Part shown: positions 47,231 through 54,996 of the stretch, in pieces
Layout: the number at the start of each line of letters is the position of its first letter
Numbering within the stretch: the stretch's first letter is position 1
Assembly: GCF_025399835.1 (NCBI RefSeq)
Contig: NZ_JAODVR010000001.1
Location: forward strand, 930,001 to 994,000
Length of the DNA: 64,000 nucleotides
Source: Haloarchaeobius sp. HME9146
Lineage (GTDB): Archaea; Halobacteriota; Halobacteria; Halobacteriales; Natrialbaceae
Direction of reading: 5' to 3'
Program-made: the position numbers and the translations under genes
The notes under the pieces: generated by a model
Database searches by the model: none
What the model was told of the DNA's origin: nothing
What the model saw: the letters and a program-made list of their open reading frames with translations, nothing else

Positions 47231-48649
47231 CTAGCTGAGTGCCCGCTCGACCGCGCTGGCGACGCTCCGGGCCTTCTCCGCGAGCGCTTCCGAGACGTGC
47301 CCCGACGCCACGGCCTCGTCGAGTTCGTCGTCGTCGACGCGTTCGACGGTTCCATCCGCGTGTTTCACCACGTCGACGTGGAGGTCGACGTAGCGAGCCT
47401 CGTCGGGGAACAGCTCGACCGGCGTGCAGATGTTCACGTAGGTGCCCTTCTTTTCGCCGTCCTCGCCGCGGTAGACCGTCGGATACCACCAGCGTCCTTC
47501 CTTGAGCTTCGTGATGGCCACGTCGCCCTGCTCGCGCGGGACGCCGAGCGCGTCGTAGGTGCCGCCGCCGGACATCTGGCGTTCGAGGGTCACCTGCCCG
47601 TCGGGGTCGTAGTCCGTTATCTCGCCGCGGCCGAGGACGATGAGCCGCCCTTCGGGTTTCCCGTGCGCGAGGGCGATGCGGTCGCCGAGCAGCGGGCCGA
47701 ACTGTTCGGTGACCGCCCGGAACGGGAACTCGCCGCCGGGGTCGTCACAGACCGCCTCGACGAAGTCGACCGCCGTACTGGCGGCGCGGTGGGCCGCCTT
47801 GATGCGATGGTGGCCGATCATGGTTCGCTCGACCCCCCGGCGAATCTCGTCGAGGGCGAAGCGGCACTCGCGGCCGAACCAGACCCAGGCGGTGCCCTCA
47901 CCGGGGGCGAGCTGGTCCGGGGCGTCGTCGGGGTCGCCGCCGGCCGACGCCAGCTGGTCGTCAAGTTCCTCGGCGCGGTCGACCGCGGCCTGGAGGGCGT
48001 CGCCGAGCGCGGACATGTCCGCGTCGGCGGCCGCGCGCTGCCAGCGGACGCCCCAGCCGTCGGGTACCTCCACGGGAAGGATGTCGGTGGTGCGGACGAT
48101 TTCGGTCGCGCGCTCACCCTTGACGTTCGCGGAGACCCCCGAGCGCCCCTGCGAGAGTTCGACCAGTCCGTCGTGGACCGTGATGTCGGTCGAGAGGAGC
48201 GGGCGGTCGTCGCTCCAGGGGGCGGCCGGTTCGTGGACCTGCACGCGAACCACGTCGCCGTCATCCACGTAGCCCTCCACCGTCCGGAACGGGAGGAAGC
48301 CTTCGGTGTCGCCCAGATCGACGACCGCGCCGCTGCCGAGCGTCTCGGTGACGATACCGTCGAACACCGCCCCGCGGGGAGCGGCGCTATCCCAGTGGAG
48401 CGCGTCGACGCCCACGGTGGCGACGACCTCGCGGACCGCCGCGAGGGTCTCGCGCTCGCCGATGAGGCCGACGCCCTGCCGGTCGTCGGTCGTCTCGATC
48501 TCGACCGCGGCCGGTCTCGCAGCGAGGTCGGCCTCGTGCTCCTCGAAGCGCCGCCGGATAGGCGGGGAGGCCTGCACCACGTCGAACCCCTCCTCGAGCA
48601 GTAGCTGGGTGAGTGCGGTCGTGTAGATGCCCCGAACCCTGACCGTCAT
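47231..48649 (-). CDS. FAU-1 family RNA-binding ribonuclease
   Basis: A 472-residue protein starting at ATG 48649 (MTVRVRGIYTTALTQLLLEEG). The family combines an S1-like RNA-binding N-terminal part similar to RNase E/G (DGIVTETLGSGAVVDLGDTEGFLPF at about 95-120) with a C-terminal DUF402 domain (YPTVYRGEDGEKKGTYVNICTPVELFPDEARYVDLHVDVVKHADG). The Pyrococcus member binds AU-rich RNA and processes 5S rRNA precursors. The start overlaps the stop of the upstream 124-residue gene by four bases, so the two are coupled. Confidence 0.9.
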   Translation of the reverse strand: MTVRVRGIYTTALTQLLLEEGFDVVQASPPIRRRFEEHEADLAARPAAVEIETTDDRQGVGLIGERETLAAVREVVATVGVDALHWDSAAPRGAVFDGIVTETLGSGAVVDLGDTEGFLPFRTVEGYVDDGDVVRVQVHEPAAPWSDDRPLLSTDITVHDGLVELSQGRSGVSANVKGERATEIVRTTDILPVEVPDGWGVRWQRAAADADMSALGDALQAAVDRAEELDDQLASAGGDPDDAPDQLAPGEGTAWVWFGRECRFALDEIRRGVERTMIGHHRIKAAHRAASTAVDFVEAVCDDPGGEFPFRAVTEQFGPLLGDRIALAHGKPEGRLIVLGRGEITDYDPDGQVTLERQMSGGGTYDALGVPREQGDVAITKLKEGRWWYPTVYRGEDGEKKGTYVNICTPVELFPDEARYVDLHVDVVKHADGTVERVDDDELDEAVASGHVSEALAEKARSVASAVERALS

Positions 48650-49020
48650 AGCTGGTCGCGGGTCGGTGCGAAACGGACACGGTCGTGGACGCTCGGACCG
48701 AGCGTGAGTTCGACCGTCCCGTCGTCGAGGAGTCTGCCGTCTTCGACGAACACGCCCCAGGTGTCGAAGCGCAGCCAGCCGCGCATCTCGGCCGCGTGCG
48801 TGGTGATGTCGCAATATTCGACGGTGTGTTCGGGGTACTCGCTCGCGCTGTGGGCCATCTCCATGTCGGAGTAGACCACGTCGTTCGTCTCGAAGAACTC
48901 CATCAGCGCCGCGGCGTCGGCTTCGGTCTGCTCGGCGACGGCCGCGGAGGCTGCCTGCAGCTCGTCGGTCGACAGGCCGACCTCGCGCAAGGCGGCCTGC
49001 GTCCGCTGGTCGAAGTGCAT
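48646..49020 (-). CDS. Hypothetical haloarchaeal protein coupled to FAU-1 gene
   Basis: A 124-residue protein (MHFDQRTQAALREVGLSTDELQAAS...). It has two N-terminal helices, then a beta-rich part (VEYCDITTHAAEMRGWLRFDTWGVFVEDGRLLDDGTVELTLGPSVHDRVRF). It resembles small haloarchaeal DUF7532-type proteins; I am not certain of the number. Its stop overlaps the FAU-1 start (ATGA), suggesting a role in the same RNA-processing step. Confidence 0.75.
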   Translation of the reverse strand: MHFDQRTQAALREVGLSTDELQAASAAVAEQTEADAAALMEFFETNDVVYSDMEMAHSASEYPEHTVEYCDITTHAAEMRGWLRFDTWGVFVEDGRLLDDGTVELTLGPSVHDRVRFAPTRDQL

Positions 49021-49435: not shown

Positions 49436-50470
49436 ATGAGTCCACGCCGTGACCCGGTCGAGCGGGCCGCCGACCGGGCCAGTGACCTGTACGAGATCGC
49501 GACGTGGGAGCCACGCACCGAGTTCGACGGGTTCGCGGTCTCTGTCTACGAGGGGCTCCGCCCCGCTGCTCGGTTCGGCGTCATCGTCCTCGCGGGCATC
49601 CTCGCGCTCGTGCTGTTCGGCCTGGTCGCCATCGGAGCCATCACCACCCCACTGGTCGGCGGCTTCGTCGTGCTCTCCATCGTTCCCGCACTGCTCTTTG
49701 CGGTCTACGTCTACCGGAGCGACGTGACGACACAGGAGCCACTGCGGCTCGTCGTCGGTACGTTCCTGCTCGCCATCCTGTTCTCGACGTTCGCCAGCGT
49801 CGTCAACACCGTGATGAGCGCGGGCTTCAGTTTCGTCGGCCTCCCGACCAGCACGCTGCTCGGCGGCTTCGTCTACTTCTTCTTCATCGTCGCGCCCGGT
49901 GAGGAGTTCGTGAAGTGGCTCGCCATCCGCATGTACCCCTACCGGCGCCCCGAGTTCGACGCGGTCATCGACGGCGCGGTGTACGGTGCCATCGCCGGCC
50001 TCGGCTTCGCCACTATCGAGAACGCGGTCTACATCACGGGGAGCATCAACCAGGCGTCGACCGTCCCCATCGTCGACGCGGGCTCGGCCATCGCGACCGT
50101 CCGGGCGTTCGCCGGGCCGGGCCACGTCATCTACTCCGCCATCGCCGGGTTCTACCTCGGACTCGCGAAGTTCAACCGGGACTACTTCGGTCCCATCGTC
50201 GTGAAGGGCCTCCTGCTCGCGGCGCTGTTCCACGCGACCTACAACATGACCGTCAGCCGGGTCCCGCAGGTGCTCTCGACCGCACTCGACATCAGTCCCA
50301 TCGCGGCGTTCTTCGGCTACGTCGTCGTCTACGACACCGTCATCGGGCTGTTCCTCTACCGCAAGATACGGAACTACCGGCGGGCCTACGACGAGGTCGG
50401 TGCCCACCGGAACGGGGTCGCGGCGGGCGAATCCGAACTCACCGAGTTCGACCAGCCCCCGCGGTACTGA
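49436..50470 (+). CDS. PrsW family intramembrane metalloprotease
   Basis: A 344-residue membrane protein with about eight hydrophobic segments from residue 45 on. The PrsW/CAAX-like motifs are present: GEEFVKW (Glu156, Glu157), FATIEN (Glu195), GHVIYSAIAG (His230) and FHATYN (His266). In Bacillus, PrsW performs site-1 cleavage of an anti-sigma factor; archaea have no such sigma system, so the substrate here is unknown. The N-terminal 40 residues are cytosolic and polar. Confidence 0.93.
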   Translation: MSPRRDPVERAADRASDLYEIATWEPRTEFDGFAVSVYEGLRPAARFGVIVLAGILALVLFGLVAIGAITTPLVGGFVVLSIVPALLFAVYVYRSDVTTQEPLRLVVGTFLLAILFSTFASVVNTVMSAGFSFVGLPTSTLLGGFVYFFFIVAPGEEFVKWLAIRMYPYRRPEFDAVIDGAVYGAIAGLGFATIENAVYITGSINQASTVPIVDAGSAIATVRAFAGPGHVIYSAIAGFYLGLAKFNRDYFGPIVVKGLLLAALFHATYNMTVSRVPQVLSTALDISPIAAFFGYVVVYDTVIGLFLYRKIRNYRRAYDEVGAHRNGVAAGESELTEFDQPPRY

Positions 50471-51768: not shown

Positions 51769-52979
51769 TCAGGGTGCCAGCGACCGCGGGAACGCGCCGA
51801 GTGCGCGCCCGCCGTCGGCCGTAATCACGACGAGGTCGGCGAGCCTGACCGTCCCTTCGTCTGCGTCACTGACCGTGGCATCGAGCGCCAGCACCGTCCC
51901 GGCGTCGAGTTCTGCGTCGTCGTCCAGCTCGCCGAGCAGCGGCGCTTCGCGGCGTTCCAGTCCGACGCCGTAGGCCGTCCCGTCGTCGCCGTCGAATCCG
52001 TAGGCAGCGACCTCGGCTTCGAGTTCCAGCAGCACCTCGCCGACCGTGATACCGGGTTCGAGTTCGCCGAGGGCCGCGTCGAGGGCGGTCTCGGCGGCCA
52101 GTTGCGCACGCCGGGTCCAGCCGCCGTCACCGTCGACGACGAACGTCCGGACCAGCCGGCCGTGGTAGCCGTCCTGCCCGTGGGGCGCGAGGTCGACGAC
52201 GACGGTGTCGCCCGGTTCGATGGGGTCGTCGCTCCGCGGGGTCGCCGTCCGGCCCGCGACGCCGATGGCGGTCGTCCCGGGGTGGACGCCCTCGGCTGCG
52301 AGGGCGGCGTTGGCCTCCCACCGCAGCCGGAGCGCGGTGAGGGGGGCGTCGTTCCAGACGAGGGGGCCGTCGTGGTCGTGGCCCTCGTCGCTGTCGTCAC
52401 CGGCGCTGTGGCTGTGGCCGTGGCCGTGGGCGTGTCCGCTGTGGCCATGGCCGTGCCCTGGGTCTTCCTCGGTGAGGTCACCGGGTTCGGCCTCGGCCAG
52501 AACTTCGGCGACGCGGCGCATGCCCGCACAGGCCGCCGACTGGACCGTTGTCTGGCGGAGCTGTTCGGCGTCGGTCTTCGTCTCCCTTGCCTGGTCGACG
52601 ACCGCGGTCGAGGCCACCTCGAAGCCCTCGTTCTCCAGGTACAGCGCGGCGTCGTGGGGGACCGTTCGGGGGTCAGGACGGTGCCGGACAGCCCGAGGTC
52701 GTCGAGTACCGTTGCGACGCGGGTGCCCGTCGGGATGTCCTCGCCTGCGGGAAGAACCTGCGCGTCGGGGTACGCTTCCGTCGCGGCGTCGGGTGCCTCG
52801 GGCGCGAGCAACAGCGCCTGCTCATCGGTGACGACGACCGCGAGTTCGCCCTCGATTTGTGCAGTTCGGGCGAGATAGCGAAGCGTCGGGTCGGACTCGC
52901 GGCCGACGTGGATGAACGCACAGGCATCGCGGGCTCGCAGCTCGCGCTGGACGGGCTCGAAATCGATTGAAAGCGACAT
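51769..52979 (-). pseudogene. M24 (creatinase/prolidase-fold) protein with one frameshift and His-rich insert
   Basis: One frame (52979 to about 52665) encodes the N-terminal creatinase-like domain (MSLSIDFEPVQRELRARDACAFIHVG ... VLDDLGLSGTVLTPE). A second frame from about 52664 to 51769 continues it (VPHDAALYLENEGFEVAS ...). Restoring one base at 52663-52664 gives 403 residues. The C-terminal M24 fold keeps the first metal Asp (VVVDLAP), but the second Asp aligns with Arg (GRLVRT), the GHG His with Tyr (AYGVGLE), the TIEP Glu with Asp and the last Glu with Ala (VRLADLV). It should therefore not be an active metallopeptidase. A His/Asp/Gly segment (HGHGHSGHAHGHGHSHS, near 52440-52390) is inserted. 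The frameshift beside a C/G run may be an assembly error. Confidence 0.8.
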
Positions 52980-52983
52980 GGCC

Positions 52984-54831
52984 TCAGTCGGCAGCTTCCG
53001 GCTCGACGGGCTGTTTCGCCATCTCGATGAGCTCGTCGAGGTCGATGCCGGTTATCTCGTTGTTCAGGAGCACGTCGACCGAGAGGGTCGGCGCGCCGTC
53101 GACGAGGTTCTCCAGCAGGACGAGGCGCTCGCGGGCACGGGACATCCCGACGTAGAACACACGTCGCTCGTTGTCGGTCAGGATGGGGACCGGCGAGGTC
53201 GTCTTGGTGAACTCGATGTCGTCGTCCAGTGCGTCCTCGTCGACCGTCGCGACCATCTGCTCGACGACCTTCTCGGTGAGGTCGGTCGCCATGAACACGT
53301 GGTCGGCCTCGCGACCCTTCGCGGAGTGGATGGTGCCGAGACGGACGTGGTCGCGGTCCATGTCGCGGTGCTCGCCGGTCGCGAAGTACGCCTTCATCGA
53401 CTTGCGCTGGAAGGAGGTGACCTTCCGGACCATGTCCGACGCCGACGCCGGGCCGGGCATGAAGGGGACGAAGTCGCTCACGAGGTCGGGCGAGATGGTG
53501 AGCTCGGTGAGGTCCTCGACACCGGCCTCTTCCTGGGCCTCGTCGATGGCGTCGAAGAACTCGTCGCGCTCGTTCGTACCGAAGGCGGACTCCTGCAGCA
53601 TGTCGGCGAGTCGTCGAGCCTGCAGCCCGTTGATGTCCTCGCCTTCCTCGATCTGCTCGACCGCGGTGACGTAGTCGTTCAGGCGGTCGGTCCACATGCG
53701 CTGGTCGGTCAGCGACTTGAACGGGATGCCCTCCGTGATGAACTCGTCGATGAACTGGAACATCTGGTAGCGCGCCCGGAACAGGATCATGACCGTCCCG
53801 TCGTCGTTCTGGATGGTCCGGCGGACGTTCCGCACGAGGTCGAGCATCGACGGGTTCTGGACGGCTTCGACGACGCCGCCCTCTTTGCGGGGTTTGAGGT
53901 CCTTGTCCTGGCGCTTCTCGATGTGGCGGATCTCCTTGTTGACGATGTTGAGGATGCGCGAGGGGAGCCGGTAGGAGTTGGGGAGGATGATGTCGTCGTC
54001 CGGCTCGGCGTCGAGCAGGAGGTCGGGGTCGGCACCCTGCCAGGCGTAGACGACCTGGTCGTCGTCACCCGCGATGAGGACGCCCTTCATGTGAGGCCGC
54101 CACTCGTCGTAGACGCGGTGCTGGAGCGTCGTGATGTCCTGGAACTCGTCGATGACGAGGTAGTCGACGTTCGGGAGCAGGGAGCGCTGTTCGACGCGTT
54201 CGAGCATGTCCGCGAAGCCGACGAGCTCGTTGTCGCCCTTGTACTTGCGCCACGCCCGGATGGTCTCGGGGACGTCGATGCGGTCGTCGTCCGAGGGCCA
54301 CGTCGGGGTGTACTTGTTGCCTTCCTGGGCGTTGGGGTCGATCTCGGGCGGGAGACGGACCGTCTCGACGTCCCACTGGAACGGCACGTCGTACCAGTCG
54401 GCGACCTCGCGGTTGGTCCGCTGGAGCCACTGGCTCGTCGCGATGATCTTGTTCCCGATGGTGGTCGAGCGGGCGGTGCGGCGGCCGGCACCACCGTACT
54501 CGTCCTCGTACTCGATGCCGTACTCCTCGCAGAACTCCTCCTTGTCGGACTCGCCGACGACGTCGTTGCGGGAGAGGTTCAGGAGGTCGTACGCCTTCGC
54601 GTGCATGGTACAGACGTTCCCCTGGAGGGAGCGGGGATTGATGTCGAGGCGCTCGGCGAGACGCTCGCGGATCTCGGCTGCTGCCGCACGAGTGTAGGAG
54701 ACGACGAGGATGTCGCGGAAGGTCACGTCCTCGTCTTCGAGGATCTCCTCCACCTTGTCGAGGAGGGCTGTCGTCTTCCCGCTTCCCGGGCCACCGAAGA
54801 GGCGGGTTACTTTCGTCTCGGCGTCAGTCAT
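52984..54831 (-). CDS. UvrD/Rep-type superfamily 1 DNA helicase
   Basis: A 615-residue ATP-dependent helicase (618 if ATG 54840 is used; a TTAT element upstream slightly favours that). Motifs: Walker A FGGPGSGKTTALL (near the start), Ia VVSYTRAAAAEIRERL, II YLVIDEFQDI, III GDDDQVVYAWQGAD, IV ILFRARYQ, V GTIHSAKGREADHVFMATD and VI RRVFYVGMSRARERLVLL. It translocates 3'-5' on single-stranded DNA in repair or replication-fork rescue. It is shorter than bacterial UvrD because the 1B/2B subdomains are reduced. Its stop lies 4 nt from the start of the M24-like gene on the same strand. Confidence 0.94.
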   Translation of the reverse strand: MTDAETKVTRLFGGPGSGKTTALLDKVEEILEDEDVTFRDILVVSYTRAAAAEIRERLAERLDINPRSLQGNVCTMHAKAYDLLNLSRNDVVGESDKEEFCEEYGIEYEDEYGGAGRRTARSTTIGNKIIATSQWLQRTNREVADWYDVPFQWDVETVRLPPEIDPNAQEGNKYTPTWPSDDDRIDVPETIRAWRKYKGDNELVGFADMLERVEQRSLLPNVDYLVIDEFQDITTLQHRVYDEWRPHMKGVLIAGDDDQVVYAWQGADPDLLLDAEPDDDIILPNSYRLPSRILNIVNKEIRHIEKRQDKDLKPRKEGGVVEAVQNPSMLDLVRNVRRTIQNDDGTVMILFRARYQMFQFIDEFITEGIPFKSLTDQRMWTDRLNDYVTAVEQIEEGEDINGLQARRLADMLQESAFGTNERDEFFDAIDEAQEEAGVEDLTELTISPDLVSDFVPFMPGPASASDMVRKVTSFQRKSMKAYFATGEHRDMDRDHVRLGTIHSAKGREADHVFMATDLTEKVVEQMVATVDEDALDDDIEFTKTTSPVPILTDNERRVFYVGMSRARERLVLLENLVDGAPTLSVDVLLNNEITGIDLDELIEMAKQPVEPEAAD

Positions 54832-54996
54832 TAGACGCATACTGGGGGCCGACACGGATAAGAGCCATGGGTTTGCTCCGCCCCCTGTGAGGCGATACCA
54901 ACGGCGCCGCAGGATGGTGAAAATCCGACGTGAGAACGGCGGATGAACGGCCGGGTCGCGAACGGTCTGTAGACGGTCCTCGATCTGTAGACGGTA

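Follow-up and report, generated by a model that had tools for sequence, protein, structure and literature searches.

A haloarchaeal M24-type protein without its metal site: a probable pseudopeptidase in a helicase-linked orthologous family

The present analysis favours a model in which an M24-type protein of Haloarchaeobius sp. HME9146 belongs to a helicase-linked orthologous family of haloarchaea and is a maintained pseudopeptidase, its two-metal site gone and its job a non-catalytic one; a probability of roughly 60% is given to this reading. The gene lies in a window of 64,000 nucleotides (the whole stretch of DNA that was analysed), directly downstream of a helicase gene and on the same strand, and the role of its product is probably related to the helicase. 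The reading is supported by the loss of the metal ligands, the conserved gene order, purifying selection, a GGxxRR motif shared by members with and without the metal site, and the scatter of the latter over the helicase tree. The model proposes that the M24 protein would assist the helicase as an accessory factor or scaffold, that the region around GGxxRR may bind the helicase or its substrate, and that the peptidase activity predicted for members with an intact site would be a dispensable extra. The features on which the model draws are as follows.

51769-52979, minus strand: M24-type gene, split across two frames (from open frames and family profile)
52656-52979, minus strand: N-terminal part of the M24-type gene, first frame, ATG at 52979 (profile positions 43-150)
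52654-52676, minus strand: frame-shift stretch, mutation or sequencing error (from the frames; single frame in five congeners)
51769-52659, minus strand: C-terminal part, M24 domain without metal site, second frame, stop at 51769 (PF00557; ligand columns D,R,Y,D,A)
52105-52125, minus strand: GGWTRRA, the GGxxRR motif after the TRT strand (from the alignment; coordinates derived by hand)
52984-54855, minus strand: UvrD/Rep-type helicase gene, 4 bp upstream of the M24-type gene (PF00580, E 8.2e-29; PF13361, E 3.1e-15)

The C-terminal part matches Peptidase_M24 (PF00557, E 2.6e-21) with 76.8 bits against a Pfam cut-off of 23, a score on which chance resemblance to M24 was rejected. A search of solved structures with a profile of the family matched 37 sequences at E 1e-5, the best being the Pyrococcus furiosus prolidase 1pv9 (E 1e-29). 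The fold is assigned by sequence alone, as an AlphaFold model of the C-terminal part, supplied with one distant relative, reached a mean pLDDT of 41. That relative (L039, 5161-6303), the only one to emerge from a scan of genome contigs, is an M24-like protein of Paraburkholderia nodosa in which, by eye, the histidine of the GHG motif is also absent. When the genome's own PepQ is taken as the reference, its ligand set D,D,H,E,E is replaced by D,R,Y,D,A in the window protein, and the same letters stand in its five congeners; the six genomes of the genus have all lost four of the five ligands, and the full set of an active M24B peptidase is found in none of them. The first-pass annotation, made from the window alone, had proposed both the M24 fold and the replacement of four of five ligands, and the alignments bear it out. 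It had also held that the protein is not a peptidase, which the residues favour, the histidine columns that are invariant in 36 live relatives being gone as well. An M24 fold from which the metal site is lost makes the window protein, by prediction, an M24 pseudopeptidase. The archaeal prolidase PepQ shares the domain, and live members of the present family keep its DDHEE set; however, the window part scores 44.3 bits against the NCBIfam PepQ model NF040821, below the cut-off of 630, and has four ligands replaced.

The gene had been taken for a single open frame from 51769 to 52979, which has to be corrected: it occupies two frames, with the shift near 52654-52676 in a C-rich stretch. The N-terminal part covers positions 43-150 of the family profile and the C-terminal part positions 150-415, and the two parts abut. 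The gene is in a single frame in all five congeners and at the other 101 helicase-adjacent loci (of which 99 pass the coverage limits and 2 stop about 20 positions before the end of the model), although a search by protein match, such as yielded these loci, favours genes that are whole. A programmed frameshift was discarded, as the five congeners and the 101 other loci are all read in a single frame. The shift in the window is thus either a real mutation or an isolated sequencing error, and unless it is an error, the window strain may no longer make the whole M24 protein. The nearest congener, G234, is 85% identical to the window protein over the C-terminal part. When the open frames from 60 kb of G234 were compared with the window, 9 of 40 rows had matches in two or more frames, the M24 gene among them; by eye, the other eight are stop-to-stop extensions, antisense shadows or second copies.

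Relatives of the helicase occur in 386 of 391 Halobacteria genomes (match at E 1e-100), and one candidate orthologue is considered to be HVO_0415, which is called UvrD in the available text of a review (PMC7776575). For the comparison, 130 loci were assembled, one per genome. An M24 gene adjoins the helicase on the same strand at 77 of the 78 loci fetched through an M24 match to the window, at all 22 fetched through the helicase from other genera of the window's family, and at 2 of the 30 fetched by profile from other groups; these 101 and the window make up the 102 rows discussed below, and the pairing is seen across five families (f1, f2, f4, f7 and f9; f1 contains Natronococcus). The remaining 29 loci have no helicase on the stretch at hand. 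Two of them (L110 and L142) are members of the family sited elsewhere in the genome. Each of the other 27 is the top M24 match in its genome, and these were excluded from the ligand tally. Within these 27 genomes, the helicase is without an M24 neighbour in 24, has an eroded one in G080 (L194), and gave no match in G218 and G021. A further 30 helicase loci, mostly of other families, have an M24 neighbour in four cases (G132, G173, G080 and G030) and none within 1.5 kb in 26 (15 in f3, 3 each in f2, f6 and f8, and 2 in f10), from which it follows that the helicase does not need the M24 protein. The loci without the neighbour are L195-L199 and L201-L221 (f3, f6, f8, f10 and part of f2). The later helicase-adjacent copies (L192, L193, L194 and L200) were read and kept outside the 102 rows. 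Two of these, L193 and L194 from genus g57 of family f4, are far more eroded, with a seemingly short N-terminus, and retain GGWERRA. One genome holds both states: L110 (G132:C3, matching the Natronococcus occultus plasmid NC_019976) keeps five ligands, and L192 beside the helicase is dead.

Among the 102 rows, five ligands are kept in 35, four in 1, two in 10, one in 34 and none in 22. Rows with two or fewer ligands (66) are here called dead, and the single DDHEG row was counted as live in trees and groups (36 live); the loci come mostly from best matches to the window protein or its helicase, and 66 to 36 is no population estimate. All 22 loci of the window's family chosen by their helicase are dead. 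On a helicase tree of 83 tips the dead forms make up nine all-dead clades (midpoint root), with at least eight changes between live and dead; a tree of 59 tips has eight changes. The helicase data reject a single dead clade (p-AU 1e-43), and the largest dead clade on the helicase tree is weakly supported (0.623). The helicase trees do not include the dead pair of genus g30, which would raise the number of changes by one. Counts of changes have no direction, and the changes are taken as losses because the outgroups are live. This pattern suggests several independent losses of the metal site in a gene that was itself kept.

However, the M24 domain itself groups most dead forms, 64 of the 66 falling into one clade of a FastTree (support 0.964), which counts against the preferred reading; with the ligand columns and three columns either side omitted, a mixture-model tree of 65 rows has three changes. 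Such groupings would be expected if a single loss of the site, or a few losses, had been followed by an exchange of M24 genes, dead or live, between lineages. This is the main alternative for the history and, although unlikely, the strongest one; it could also draw on live copies on other replicons, as on the Natronococcus occultus plasmid, in a genome with a dead helicase-adjacent copy. Yet each transfer would have had to reach the same slot behind a helicase, the dead g30 pair (the two rows outside the large clade) nests among live copies on both M24 trees, and long branches may attract one another. In addition, three of four groupings like those of the helicase tree are not rejected by the M24 data (g34 with g30 and g74, p 0.20; g52 and g53 with g48, 0.50; g32 with g62 and g70, 0.46) and the fourth is borderline (g79 with g35, p 0.053), the four having been picked after the helicase tree was known. 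The two sets of trees are read here as repeated loss of the metal site together with some long-branch attraction in the M24 tree. A stronger version of the pseudopeptidase model can be put forward only tentatively, namely that the ancestral main function of the M24 protein in the slot behind the helicase was non-catalytic, as a cofactor or scaffold acting through GGxxRR, and that the metal site was discarded repeatedly, perhaps nine times.

What has been retained may be seen from the 42 columns that are at least 85% conserved (genus-weighted) in both the live and the dead group, the clearest being GGxxRR. The motif is found in 102 of 102 helicase-adjacent rows, live and dead alike, and in all four of the later helicase-adjacent copies; with its GGWTRRA and its position directly behind the helicase, the window protein takes its place in this helicase-linked family. 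The same alignment shows no GGxxRR in seven PepQ-type sequences and two non-adjacent family sequences. Three other non-adjacent copies (L225, L226 and L227), judged by eye, keep five ligands and lack GG, with RR kept in L225 and L226. Being present beside the helicase and incomplete away from it, the motif appears to track proximity to the helicase and not the state of the metal site; non-adjacent copies number only five and may be of one origin. A pseudoenzyme could also be maintained for a role unrelated to the helicase, with the pair held together by operon inertia. The helicase link is drawn from gene order, which alone may be such inertia; structural demands could account for most of the constrained positions, there are intact family copies at sites not adjoining the helicase, and the absence of the neighbour at 26 of the 30 further helicase loci speaks for inertia as it does against the preferred reading. 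However, a pairing that spans five families and a motif that goes with the helicase neighbourhood and not with the metal site, few as the non-adjacent copies are, make a role apart from the helicase rather unlikely.

Dead copies are also under selection. Pairwise dN/dS (Nei-Gojobori) lies between 0.14 and 0.36 in 17 of 18 dead pairs, the remaining pair having 0.87 at a dS of 0.05, and between 0.10 and 0.24 in all nine live pairs; some rows were used twice and the broken copy of the window is among them. The helicase is under stronger constraint than the M24 gene (0.03-0.16, n=22), and this, the single high pair, the far more eroded g57 copies and the broken window copy all weigh against the preferred reading. 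The same frameshift and the same g57 copies, along with the absence of the gene beside the helicase in several families, could be taken to mean that a dispensable peptidase gene is on its way out, the window copy being one stage of its decay. Such plain decay is improbable in view of the purifying selection in dead pairs and of the single frame at all 101 other helicase-adjacent loci, even with a protein-match sampling that favours whole genes. The first-pass annotation had expected homologues that possess the five ligands and lack the His insert to indicate simple decay. Five-ligand homologues without the insert do exist (35 of 102), yet simple decay cannot be concluded from them, since the dead copies are under purifying selection and keep the family-specific motif.

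The M24 fold includes metal-free enzymes, and creatinase is one that uses it without metal. It is conceivable that the dead proteins are likewise metal-free hydrolases in which the fold works with other pocket residues, and creatinase (1chm) is a weak match to the family profile (E 9.6e-7). However, the five ligand columns of the dead rows hold over 40 letter combinations, the pocket columns vary between dead clades, and the histidine of three other columns, which all 36 live rows have, survives in 1, 5 and 6 of the 66 dead rows. No common new catalytic set is therefore visible, such as would be shared in the manner of creatinase, at least in the three histidine columns tallied, and a hydrolase of this kind is highly improbable.

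The window protein further carries a histidine-rich linker, which had been described as a loop of about 12 histidines; the count is 10.

52372-52455, minus strand: His-rich linker, 10 His in 45 residues (from the linker survey)
52408-52438, minus strand: hexamer repeat, 5.2 copies, part of the His-rich linker (from repeat analysis)

Stretches of the type (HG)n can bind nickel or zinc, and the first-pass annotation had proposed a metal store or metallochaperone, in which a His-rich loop binding nickel, zinc or cobalt would replace the function of the lost site. Ten histidines in 45 residues, and the presence of His-rich linkers in G234 as well as in two genomes from g22, the sister genus, could be cited for it. 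However, across the 102 rows the linker varies from 3 to 45 residues (median 9), and three or more histidines occur in four rows only, the window with 10, G234 with 7 and the two of g22 with 6 and 5; in the four remaining congeners, out of six genomes in the genus, the linker is nine residues long and contains two. Elsewhere in the family the linker is short or acidic, and many dead forms have no histidine in it at all. The neighbours in the window are the helicase, a riboflavin synthase and a PrsW-type protein, with no metal gene among them. No M24 protein is named in the available text of work on metal homeostasis in haloarchaea (PMC3600143). A metallochaperone was rejected as the main reading on the four rows in 102, and it is the least probable of the alternatives. 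Of the two features whose conservation in haloarchaea the annotation had wished to see surveyed, the ligand loss is far wider (66 of 102 rows) than the His insert. The stretch is read here as a fast-changing, low-complexity linker. At the DNA level, runs of five alternating His codons in any frame occur at six sites of the genome against five for a reversed-pattern control, and such a run is therefore not extraordinary. Slippage in a tolerant linker would fit, perhaps begun in the common ancestor of g1 and g22. Incidental binding of metal by the linker is possible, and would not be what the family is kept for.

M24-type proteins that have lost their site and serve as partners of other molecules have precedents. 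Ebp1 (PA2G4) is an M24 pseudopeptidase that, according to the available text of PMC11266112, keeps two of the five ligands; it is a binding platform rather than an enzyme. It resembles the present family in its M24 fold and lost metal site; however, it is eukaryotic, belongs to the methionine-aminopeptidase branch, has no helicase neighbour and lies outside the 37 structures matched. The N-terminal domain of Spt16, a subunit of FACT, is an aminopeptidase-like pita-bread domain without activity, which binds histones in human and S. pombe, whereas tail binding was not seen for that of S. cerevisiae, as the accessible portion of PMC4741192 has it. Here the likeness is an inactive M24-type domain in a DNA-related complex, and the difference is that the Spt16 domain is fused into a eukaryotic histone chaperone; it, too, is outside the 37. 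A helicase-linked haloarchaeal M24 family was not reported among the titles and abstract openings listed in the literature searched, from which subscription journals were mostly absent. The dead M24 proteins known so far stand on single branches, and in the present case live and dead forms share one chromosomal slot within one archaeal class; with at least eight changes of state on the tree of the neighbour, it can be asked which function outlives catalysis. If the pseudopeptidase model and its stronger version are true, orthologues of both kinds side by side would form a natural series from enzyme to pseudoenzyme and would give archaea a counterpart, in DNA transactions, of the dead M24 domain that Spt16 carries. 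The M24 protein may be regarded as a candidate partner of a helicase found in nearly all haloarchaeal genomes searched. On a practical level, haloarchaeal genes annotated as M24 family metallopeptidase or Xaa-Pro peptidase may be without a metal site.

Some minor observations concern the window and its genome. The PrsW-type membrane protein is encoded at 49436-50470 on the plus strand (PF13367, E 4.6e-41), and a DUF402 protein with a weak S1 match at 47231-48760 on the minus strand. A second contig of the genome carries two more M24 genes (L003 and L004) in which several of the five ligands are, by eye, seemingly absent; these are perhaps metal-free enzymes resembling creatinase or ectoine hydrolase.
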